A stretch of DNA of 64,000 nucleotides, taken from positions 1 to 64,000 of the forward strand of contig JAGOOG010000009.1 in the NCBI GenBank assembly GCA_017992605.1, given 5' to 3'. The position numbers were made by a program, and so were the translations under genes. This stretch comes from Deltaproteobacteria bacterium. GTDB taxonomy: Bacteria > Desulfobacterota > Desulfomonilia > UBA1062. The notes under the pieces are model-generated. The model was not told the origin of the DNA, did not search any database, and worked only from the letters and a program-made list of their open reading frames with translations. Positions 18,288-22,063 of the stretch are shown in pieces; positions within the stretch are counted from its first letter, which is position 1, and each line of letters begins with the position of its first letter.

Positions 18288-20024
18288 ATGGACAAGATAC
18301 TCCGGATCGACATGGGCGCGACAGGAGGCCCGCAGTTCAAGGTTGATCCCCTCGGGCCGTATGAAGGACTCGGGGGGAGGGCGCTGACCTCGACCGTGAT
18401 CTCCCGGGAGGTCCCGCCTCTGTGCCATCCCCTGGGGGCCGAGAACAAGCTCGTGATCGCTCCCGGCATGCTCAGCGGGACTGCCGCATCCATGTCCGGC
18501 CGCCTGTCGGTGGGCTGCAAGAGCCCGCTGACCGGAGGGATCAAGGAGGCCAACTCCGGGGGGCAGGGGGCACAGGTGCTGGCCCGCCTCGGGTATGCCG
18601 CCATCATCCTCGAGGGCACACCGGAAGGGGACGACCTCTACAAGGTTTTCATCAACAAGGACGGCATCAGGGTCGAAAAGGACAATTCCCTGAAGATGCT
18701 GACCAACTACGACCTCGTGGAGCTGCTCAGGAAGCAGTACGGCGACAAGATCACCTGCATTTCCATAGGACCTGCCGGCGAGATGAAGCTCTGCGCGGCA
18801 TCGGTGGCGATAACGGACATCGAGGGCCGGCCGTCCCGTCACGCAGGCCGCGGCGGGGTAGGGGCGGTCATGGGCGCCAAGGGCGTCAAGGTCGTCATAC
18901 TCGACGATACCGGCCTGAAGAACAGGGAGCCCAAGGATCCCGAAAAGTTCAGGGCGGCCAACAAGAAGTTCGTGGAGGGCCTCACCACCCATGCGGTCAC
19001 GGGCCAGGCCCTTCCGGCCTACGGCACCAACGTGCTCACCAACATCATCAACGAGGCGGGCGGCTACCCCACCTACAATTTCAGGGACGGGCAGTTTGCG
19101 GGCGCGTCAAAGATCAGCGGTGAAACCTTTGCGGACCTGGAAACCAAGCGCGGCGGCAACGCCACCCACCCGTGCCACCGGGGGTGCGTGATCAGGTGCT
19201 CGGGGACCTACGTGGACAAGGACGGGCATTTCGTGTCCAAGCAGCCCGAGTACGAGACCGTGTGGGCCCACGGCGGCAACTGCGGCATCAGCGACCCTGA
19301 CGCCATCGCGCAGATCGACTTCCTGGACGACACCATCGGCCTGGACACCATCGAGATGGGCGTCACCATCGGCGTGGCCATGCAGGCCGGCCTCATAAAA
19401 TTCGGGGATGCGGCCGGGGCCATCGAGCTCATCAATGAAGTGGGGAAGGGGACCCCGCTGGGGAAGATCCTCGGGAGCGGCGCTGCCGTGACCGGCAAGG
19501 TCTTCGGGGTGGAGAAGGTGCCGGTGGTGAAGAACCAGGCACTCCCCGCCTATGACCCGCGGGCGGTCCAGGGCATCGGCGTGACGTACGCGACCAGCCC
19601 CATGGGCGCCGACCACACCGCAGGATATGCCGTCGCCACCAACATACTCAAGAGCGGCGGTTATGTGGACCCGCTCAAGCCCGAAGGTCAGGTGGAGCTG
19701 TCCCGCAACCTCCAGGTCGCCACGGCCGCCATCGATTCTACGGGCATGTGCCTGTTCATCGCCTTTGCCGTGCTGGACCAGCCCGAGACCTTCCAGGCCC
19801 TCATCGACCTTCTCAACGCGTTCTACGGCTGGACCCTTACAGGAGACGACGTGACCGCCCTGGGCAAGAGGGTGCTCAAGATGGAGCGGGAGTTCAACGC
19901 CAAGGCCGGCTTCACCAAGGAGCAGGACCGTCTGCCCCGCTTCTTCTCCGCGGACAAGGTGCGTCCGCACGACATCACCTTCCAGGTGACCGACGCGGAG
20001 CTTGACCAGGTCTTCAACTGGTAG
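18288..20024 (+). CDS. Aldehyde ferredoxin oxidoreductase family tungsten/molybdenum enzyme
   Basis: This 578-residue protein spans the AOR N-terminal, second and third domains. It probably oxidises an aldehyde (or reduces an acid) with ferredoxin, using a bis-pyranopterin tungsten or molybdenum cofactor. Cluster ligands are Cys296, Cys300 and Cys304 (PCHRGCVIRC) and a late Cys488 (STGMCLF). The first spacing is three residues, where P. furiosus AOR has two. A strong AAAAGGAGG precedes the ATG. It heads a run with a MoaD-like carrier and a ThiF/MoeB-like enzyme. The substrate cannot be deduced; it may belong to the less characterised YdhV-like branch. Confidence 0.9.
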   Translation: MDKILRIDMGATGGPQFKVDPLGPYEGLGGRALTSTVISREVPPLCHPLGAENKLVIAPGMLSGTAASMSGRLSVGCKSPLTGGIKEANSGGQGAQVLARLGYAAIILEGTPEGDDLYKVFINKDGIRVEKDNSLKMLTNYDLVELLRKQYGDKITCISIGPAGEMKLCAASVAITDIEGRPSRHAGRGGVGAVMGAKGVKVVILDDTGLKNREPKDPEKFRAANKKFVEGLTTHAVTGQALPAYGTNVLTNIINEAGGYPTYNFRDGQFAGASKISGETFADLETKRGGNATHPCHRGCVIRCSGTYVDKDGHFVSKQPEYETVWAHGGNCGISDPDAIAQIDFLDDTIGLDTIEMGVTIGVAMQAGLIKFGDAAGAIELINEVGKGTPLGKILGSGAAVTGKVFGVEKVPVVKNQALPAYDPRAVQGIGVTYATSPMGADHTAGYAVATNILKSGGYVDPLKPEGQVELSRNLQVATAAIDSTGMCLFIAFAVLDQPETFQALIDLLNAFYGWTLTGDDVTALGKRVLKMEREFNAKAGFTKEQDRLPRFFSADKVRPHDITFQVTDAELDQVFNW

Positions 20025-20108: not shown

Positions 20109-20333
20109 ATGAAGATAACGGTAAAGCTCTTCGCGACCCTGCGGCGCGGGCGCTTCGATCGCGAAATCCTCGATCTCGACAGGGGAAGCACGGTCCGCGA
20201 TGTGACCGGGTCGCTCGGCATACCTGACAGGGAGGCCGCGATCATCTTCATCGACAGCCGCCACGCGGATCTCGATACGGTGCTCGCCGAAGGAGCCAAC
20301 CTTTCCATCTTTCCACCGATAGGGGGAGGGTGA
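20109..20333 (+). CDS. MoaD/ThiS-family sulfur carrier protein
   Basis: This 74-residue ubiquitin-like carrier begins MKITVKLFATLR and ends in PPIGGG, the C-terminal diglycine that is adenylated and thiocarboxylated. MoaD supplies sulfur for the pyranopterin dithiolene. The position between an AOR-type enzyme and an E1-like activator points to cofactor assembly for the tungsten enzyme. Its TGA overlaps the next ATG. Confidence 0.9.
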   Translation: MKITVKLFATLRRGRFDREILDLDRGSTVRDVTGSLGIPDREAAIIFIDSRHADLDTVLAEGANLSIFPPIGGG

Positions 20334-21157
20334 TGGGTGCGCTCCACGATTTTCTCAGGGCGGGCAGCAGGGACGGTCTGGTGCCCCTGGCCCTCCACCG
20401 TGATGCCGTCATCCGGTTCGGCCTCGCCGACGCCGACGTCGAGGACGCGATCCTGTCGCTGGGGCTTCTGCCCGAGCGCTACCTGAGGAACACCAGGACC
20501 ATATCCCGGGCAGAGCAGCTCCGGCTCTTCAGGAGCCACGTAGCGGTCGTGGGCTGTGGAGGTCTCGGTGGCTACGTCACCGAAGAACTGTGCCGGATCG
20601 GCGTGGGAACCCTGACGGTCATCGACCCGGACGTGTTCGAGGAGCACAACCTGAACCGCCAGCTCCACGCCACCCTCGCCTCGCTGGGAGAGCCCAAGGT
20701 CGAGGCAGTCAGAAAAAGGACAGGCGAGATCAACCCGGCCGCCACGATCATCACGAGGCGGATGTCGCTTTCCAGGGAGAACGGACAGGAACTCCTGGCA
20801 GGGGCGAACCTGGCCGTCGATGCCCTGGACAGCATACCGGCGCGCATCGAGCTGGCGGGGGTGTGCGAGCGGCTGAACATCCCCCTGGCACACGGGAGCG
20901 TGGGGGGGTGGTACGGTCAGGTCACGGTGCAGTACCCGGGCGACAGGACGCTGGAAAAGCTCTATGCAGGGTGCACGGCAGACAAGGGCGTGGAGCAGGA
21001 GCTCGGCACCCCCCCGTTCTCGCCGGCGCTGGTGGCGAGCATCGAGGTCTCCGAGGCGATCAAGATCCTGCTCGGGCAGGGCACTGCCCTCAGGCACGCG
21101 CTCCTGTCCATAAACCTCCTGGACCTCGAGTTCGCTGTCGTCCCGGTGGCAGAATGA
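20333..21157 (+). CDS. ThiF/MoeB/HesA-family adenylyltransferase
   Basis: This 274-residue E1-like enzyme would adenylate the C-terminal glycine of the adjacent MoaD-like carrier. It has the nucleotide-binding loop VVGCGGLGGYVTEELCR, the DPDVFEEHNLNRQ string with the catalytic Arg, and a conserved late SIEVSEAIKILLG helix. About 60 extra residues precede the Rossmann core. The paired CxxC zinc motifs of classical MoeB are absent. The ATG overlaps the moaD stop (TGATG); an in-frame GTG at 20330 is possible. Its stop overlaps the ATG of the truncated maturase gene. Confidence 0.88.
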   Translation: MGALHDFLRAGSRDGLVPLALHRDAVIRFGLADADVEDAILSLGLLPERYLRNTRTISRAEQLRLFRSHVAVVGCGGLGGYVTEELCRIGVGTLTVIDPDVFEEHNLNRQLHATLASLGEPKVEAVRKRTGEINPAATIITRRMSLSRENGQELLAGANLAVDALDSIPARIELAGVCERLNIPLAHGSVGGWYGQVTVQYPGDRTLEKLYAGCTADKGVEQELGTPPFSPALVASIEVSEAIKILLGQGTALRHALLSINLLDLEFAVVPVAE

Positions 21158-21267
21158 CGGGTTCTTCGGTTCCGGACACGGCGCCGGTCCCGCGGTCTTT
21201 CCCCGCCAAGGGCATCGTTGAGCCCACCACGCGATGCACCCTGCAGTGCCCCATGCGCCTGAAGTGA
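21154..21267 (+). pseudogene. Truncated radical SAM maturase remnant beside AOR
   Basis: An ATG overlaps the upstream stop (ATGA), as in a coupled operon gene. The 37-codon product contains KGIVEPTTRCTLQCPM, which matches the start of radical SAM/SPASM proteins (EPTxRCNLxCxMC). The third cluster cysteine is missing: the frame reads Arg-Leu-Lys and stops. Only 84 bases separate this stop from the next gene, so the other roughly 300 residues are absent from the locus. Tungsten-enzyme radical SAM maturases are known neighbours of AOR, which supports the identity. It could in principle be a tiny functional ORF, but a deletion remnant is more likely. Confidence 0.65.
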
Positions 21268-21351
21268 GATAACTCGGTCACAGGTCCGGGATCCAAACAG
21301 TTCCCTTCGTGTGCAATCTCGTGTATAGAGAGGGGTACCCGGAATCGTACC

Positions 21352-21678
21352 ATGGCAATCGGCATACTGTCGCTCATCCTTGTCATCGGCTTCTTCGTCG
21401 TGTATCTCGCTTTCCTTGCGCCCAGGCCCGATCTCGTGTTCACCTCGGCCTCGGACGACGAGATCCGTGACGTGAAGCGCCACCTTGAGGACAACGGCAT
21501 CGAGGTGTATATCAAGGGCATGGACATGCAGCGTCTTCACGAGACGGCGTACGACCTTGTGAACCCGACCCTGCACGTCGTACATCCCGAAGATCGTTCA
21601 AGGGCCCTTGAACTCGTCGATGGCCTGAGGAGCGGTTCCCGTCGAGCGGACCGCAGAGAGGACGGCCATGGGATCTAA
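21352..21678 (+). CDS. Small membrane-anchored DUF2007-like protein
   Basis: This 108-residue protein has one N-terminal membrane helix (ILSLILVIGFFVVYLAFLA) and a soluble ferredoxin-like half with DEIRDVKRHLEDNGIEVYI and a closing VVHPEDRSRALELVDGL. That pattern fits the DUF2007 'putative prokaryotic signal transducing' family, whose function is not established. It overlaps the next gene by 11 bases. The ribosome binding site (GAGAGGGG) is rather far away, at about 14 bases. Confidence 0.65.
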   Translation: MAIGILSLILVIGFFVVYLAFLAPRPDLVFTSASDDEIRDVKRHLEDNGIEVYIKGMDMQRLHETAYDLVNPTLHVVHPEDRSRALELVDGLRSGSRRADRREDGHGI

Positions 21679-22063
21679 ACCGCCGAAGACAGGCCCTGCT
21701 AAGATGAGCAAGGAGGAGATGGAACAGTTCCTGGCACGGGCCCGGCAGCTCAACGAAGAGCGCATGAAGGGCTACCGGGAACAGTCGCTCAGGATACACC
21801 CCTGGGTGTGTGCCCGGTGCGGCAGGCAGTTCACCCTGAAGAACCTCAAGGAACTCACCGTGCATCACAAGGACCACAACCACGACAACAACCCCCCCGA
21901 CGGGAGCAACTGGGAACACCTCTGTGTGTACTGTCACGATGCCGAGCACGGAAGGTATGACGAGGCGACAGGCGACTACGTGGAACTCCCCGAAGAAGGG
22001 ACGGCCTCCATGACCCACAGCCCCTTCGCTGCACTCCAAGACATGATGAAGAAAAAGAGGTAA
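21668..22063 (+). CDS. YajD-like HNH nuclease family protein
   Basis: This 131-residue protein carries a zinc-framed HNH motif: CARCGRQF, then ELTVHHKDHNHDNNPPDGSNWEHLCVYCHDAEH, where the HHKDHNH and N-x-x-HLCVYCH elements are the metal-binding and catalytic positions. It resembles E. coli YajD (115 residues). The DNA target is unknown. GAGAGGA lies five bases before the ATG, and the start overlaps the DUF2007-like gene. Confidence 0.85.
   Translation: MGSKPPKTGPAKMSKEEMEQFLARARQLNEERMKGYREQSLRIHPWVCARCGRQFTLKNLKELTVHHKDHNHDNNPPDGSNWEHLCVYCHDAEHGRYDEATGDYVELPEEGTASMTHSPFAALQDMMKKKR

Follow-up and report, generated by a model that had tools for sequence, protein, structure and literature searches.

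The window, meaning the whole 64,000-nucleotide stretch of DNA analysed here, holds a gene for an aldehyde ferredoxin oxidoreductase (AOR) at the head of an operon that closes on a reading frame of only 37 codons. Does this frame mark the place of a lost radical SAM maturase and, if so, how would the AOR still be matured? The genes concerned are, in order:

18288..20024, + strand: AOR (tungsten aldehyde ferredoxin oxidoreductase family), 578 aa, intact (Pfam PF02730 and PF01314)
20109..20333, + strand: MoaD/ThiS-like sulfur carrier, 74 aa, GGG at its end, intact (Pfam PF02597; orthologues in both congeners and in the relatives L096 and L097, described below)
20330..21157, + strand: ThiF/MoeB-like E1 adenylyltransferase, 275 aa, intact (Pfam PF00899, E = 3e-48)
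21154..21267, + strand: very probable remnant of a TIGR04311 radical SAM/SPASM gene: 37 codons from its start, then TGA (intact counterparts at L096:10836-12158 and L097:3519-4841)
21265..21351, + strand: relic end (TGA) and non-coding gap, with no further radical SAM similarity
21352..21678, + strand: DUF2007-like small protein (Pfam PF09413, E = 4e-4, below the gathering score; synteny with the congeners G003 and G004)
21668..22063, + strand: YajD-type HNH nuclease (NCBIfam NF008448, above cut-off; synteny with G003 and G004)

The AOR has the AFOR_N and AFOR_C domains and the conserved cluster cysteines (C296, C300, C304 and C488, invariant among nine homologues), and its closest solved relatives are AORs (e.g. 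9mqx and 1aor). ThiF retains the motifs GCGGLGG and FEEHNLNRQ in an alignment with seven homologues, and MoaD retains its terminal glycines when the window is compared with the congeners.

The short frame at 21154-21267 was confirmed; its 37-residue product, MTGSSVPDTAPVPRSFPAKGIVEPTTRCTLQCPMRLK, ends in EPTTRCTLQCPMRLK, followed by TGA. Its ATG is coupled to the ThiF stop, as an earlier note on this DNA had observed: the stop codon TGA at 21155-21157 sits within the four bases ATGA that also hold the ATG. When the 37 residues were searched against NCBIfam with E up to 1, TIGR04311 (rSAM_Geo_metal, ‘radical SAM/SPASM putative metalloenzyme maturase’) was the sole family returned, and no match to TIGR04317 was found. 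Residues 16-37 correspond to TIGR04311 profile positions 1-22 (E = 0.008), a match of only 22 residues whose 15.2 bits are far below the curated whole-protein cut-off of 400 bits. When 83 AOR loci were searched in six frames with an HMM, the window segment was recovered at E = 0.0023 (profile 11-41).

Intact counterparts are found in relatives. Among 80 named AOR loci compared via the AOR alignment, the best two were L096 (Syntrophus sp. MAG GL140) and L097 (a delta proteobacterium MAG), whose AORs, 79% identical to the window AOR, are the closest from beyond the genus. In the AOR tree, the window trio and L096/L097 fall in a six-row fork with support 90, within an 11-row set at 97. Both relatives have the gene order AOR, MoaD, ThiF and a 440-aa TIGR04311 protein; the radical SAM gene overlaps ThiF by four bases, exactly as the relic does, and its product reads PALKPYPTKLFVETTTRCNLQCPMCLK. 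The L096 protein scores 605 bits against TIGR04311, and 267 bits, under the cut-off, against TIGR04317 (W_rSAM_matur, ‘tungsten cofactor oxidoreductase radical SAM maturase’), a related radical SAM/SPASM family. Aligned to PALKPYPTKLFVETTTRCNLQCPMCLK, the stub PVPRSFPAKGIVEPTTRCTLQCPMRLK scores 84-92 (92 against the L097 homologue); of 300 base-shuffled controls, the highest-scoring reached 44. The N-terminal resemblance to radical SAM proteins on which the earlier note relied is therefore real and exceeds chance, and the relic shares with intact TIGR04311 members both sequence, up to LQCPM.LK, and operon place, which points to descent from that family.

The differences are as plain. The intact copies have 440 residues, a CX3CX2C cluster motif and a SPASM domain; the relic stops with a TGA directly after LK, so that the SPASM domain and about 400 codons of the radical SAM gene are missing. 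The cluster motif had been described as lacking its third cysteine and everything after it. All residues after LK are indeed gone; the third position itself, however, is present and reads Arg in RCTLQCPMR (CGC, vs TGC in L096 and L097). Past LK, at 21265..21351 on the + strand, no radical SAM similarity was detected (best local score 20 vs a shuffled median of 24), and no further gene pieces 3' of the stub or on the opposite strand rose above the shuffled level. Because the third iron-sulfur ligand, the remaining radical SAM domain and the SPASM domain are missing, a stub of this sequence can have no radical SAM activity; nothing can be argued from it about any other function. Like the earlier note, we read the frame as a truncated radical SAM gene; very probably it represents the 5' end of a TIGR04311 radical SAM/SPASM gene that has been lost, once last in an AOR-MoaD-ThiF-rSAM operon, with a history as set out below.

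Two congeners, G003 and G004, have an AOR of the window kind (89% and 87% identical), and in both the same DUF2007 and HNH genes lie downstream. After the ThiF stop, G003 reads MTAQTPIAMRPHPTKLIV..., of which about the first 20 radical SAM residues align before the sequences diverge (0 and 2 of 300 shuffles scored as well); the overlap with ThiF is lost. Directly 3' of ThiF, G004 carries an apparent internal piece of the radical SAM gene, GGEFEGLARAMQAARTRRTAPRHTGIEFVLR..., without the N-terminus (0 of 300 shuffles as good; profile 140-191 at E = 0.19 in a local HMM search). Neither remnant alone matched a public family, and both assignments, which are weaker evidence than the window stub, draw on place as much as on score. 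Between its putative remnant and the DUF2007 gene, G004 has a gene for a 448-aa protein carrying ferredoxin domains of the 4Fe-4S type (L039:3480-4823, − strand), which the window does not have. Because the remnants differ, either the common ancestor still had much of the radical SAM gene, which was then lost in separate events, or a single early inactivating event came first and the dead gene eroded along separate lines.

The rest of the operon has been kept. The AOR, MoaD and ThiF frames are open in the window and in both congeners, and pairwise NG86 estimates among the three give dN/dS values of 0.08-0.11 for AOR, 0.16-0.29 for MoaD and 0.18-0.38 for ThiF (the G003 ThiF gene being read over two contigs that share 99 identical end bases). 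These three genes are still under purifying selection, although dN/dS averages over the time since the species split and would miss an AOR that stopped working only very recently. For L096/L097, the pair with the intact operon, the values are 0.045 for AOR, 0.09 for MoaD and 0.25 for ThiF; because the ThiF ratio is similar there, we do not claim that loss of the radical SAM gene has relaxed selection on ThiF or MoaD.

The earlier note had asked whether the AOR is still matured or whether a second copy acts in trans. A full maturase elsewhere in the genome, serving the AOR and making the operon copy redundant, would have parallels in several Geobacter-type genomes, in which TIGR04311 is kept apart from the AOR locus, and G003 encodes, at a contig end, the last 114 residues of a tungsten maturase of the TIGR04317 type, whose gene may be complete there (G003:C24:30496-30839; L214:3494-3838). 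In the window's own genome, no other TIGR04311 or TIGR04317 gene was found, in an assembly that is 98.5% complete in 63 contigs and thus leaves some room for a missed copy; the weaker radical SAM matches there are other enzymes, AhbC (C51) and MoaA (C53). G004 likewise yielded neither TIGR04311 nor TIGR04317. We therefore rate supply in trans as improbable. About as improbable is a decay of the entire operon with an inactive AOR, which would fit the absence of an AOR of the window kind from two further members of the genus (G001 and G002) and the faster divergence of MoaD and ThiF relative to AOR; against it, the AOR has its full length and its cysteines in all three species, with dN/dS values close to 0.1, and ThiF evolves fast in the intact-operon pair as well.

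Two further readings concern the short frame itself, and both are very unlikely. Its ATGA overlap with ThiF suggests that it may still be translated, in which case it might have been kept as a coupled leader or for a short peptide with a function of its own; that overlap, however, is inherited from the intact gene, and the congeners, in which the note had proposed to look for a conserved short product, have none: G003 diverges past about 20 residues and G004 lacks the N-terminus, on which ground we rejected a conserved peptide. An assembly or binning artefact is conceivable in a multi-contig assembly whose read data are not visible, yet the junction is internal to a contig, and the separately assembled G003 repeats the order ThiF, short remnant, DUF2007, HNH.

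The genome encodes five AOR-family proteins. The four besides that of the window lie at C3, C12, C49 and C55 (L215-L218), the one at C3 near a benzoyl-CoA reductase/double-cubane-type protein. Across genomes, a TIGR04311 match (E 1e-40) is lacking in 31 of the 50 with an AOR at least about 70% identical, and presence or absence of the family requires only three changes on the AOR tree; its presence thus follows lineage. Interrupted copies occur elsewhere. In the Nitrospirota MAG WY3.bin121, a TIGR04311 gene beside the AOR (L106:10839-12284) is interrupted by a single TAG in frame, either because a point mutation made it a pseudogene or through faulty assembly; a selenocysteine reading was rejected, the stop being TAG and the close homologue L115 having Lys at that position. 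A TIGR04311-like match at G196:C126:358-1635 (L191) has one in-frame TGA near its start.

The intact operons of L096 and L097, together with the differing remnants, suggest an ancestor with an intact AOR-MoaD-ThiF-rSAM operon, in which the radical SAM gene would then have lost function; in the window lineage, a deletion would have taken nearly the whole gene, and a mutation the third cluster cysteine. Judging from family name and operon place, the target of the intact radical SAM/SPASM enzyme would be the AOR or its pterin cofactor; MoaD and ThiF are by homology a predicted sulfur carrier and its activating enzyme. Because of this homology and the presence of MoaA, we expect a working basic pterin route, so that the AOR is probably still matured without the radical SAM enzyme, most likely by the ordinary molybdopterin route (MoaA) with its own MoaD and ThiF. 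The window AOR would then be active, and the likeliest interpretation is that the maturase is dispensable for it and was lost, rather than replaced in trans by a second full copy. We give even chances to the broader proposition that the maturase gene was worn away independently in each of the three congeners, with AOR, MoaD and ThiF retained, and that this AOR subfamily either needs no radical SAM enzyme from its operon or forgoes the change that the enzyme makes to cofactor or protein.

Comparable loci have been described. In Thermococcus kodakarensis, tk1066-tk1065-tk1064 encode an AOR, a MoaD-type ubiquitin-like protein (Ubl) and a radical SAM protein proposed for cofactor maturation, and the available text of that report says only that the neighbouring radical SAM protein ‘might be involved’ (PMC11323500). 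The window resembles this locus in having an AOR by a MoaD-like gene and differs in that the radical SAM gene is present there; the likeness is one of gene neighbourhood. CsWOR87 of Cetobacterium somerae is reported, in the available part of its description, as an active tungsten oxidoreductase adjoining worX and thiF (PMC13328260); it is, as in the window, a single-subunit tungsten oxidoreductase beside a pterin-type gene and thiF, from another organism and another clade.

The finding is ordinary gene decay within a known family. Its value lies in what decayed: TIGR04311 is named only a ‘putative metalloenzyme maturase’, and a search by family name found no papers naming TIGR04311 or TIGR04317 in the literature collection covered. 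A genus with different gene losses and a kept enzyme, alongside close relatives with the full operon, provides matched pairs with and without the maturase, in which the dependence of AOR cofactor and activity on it can be tested; the decay amounts to a naturally occurring knock-out of a maturase whose role is unproven.
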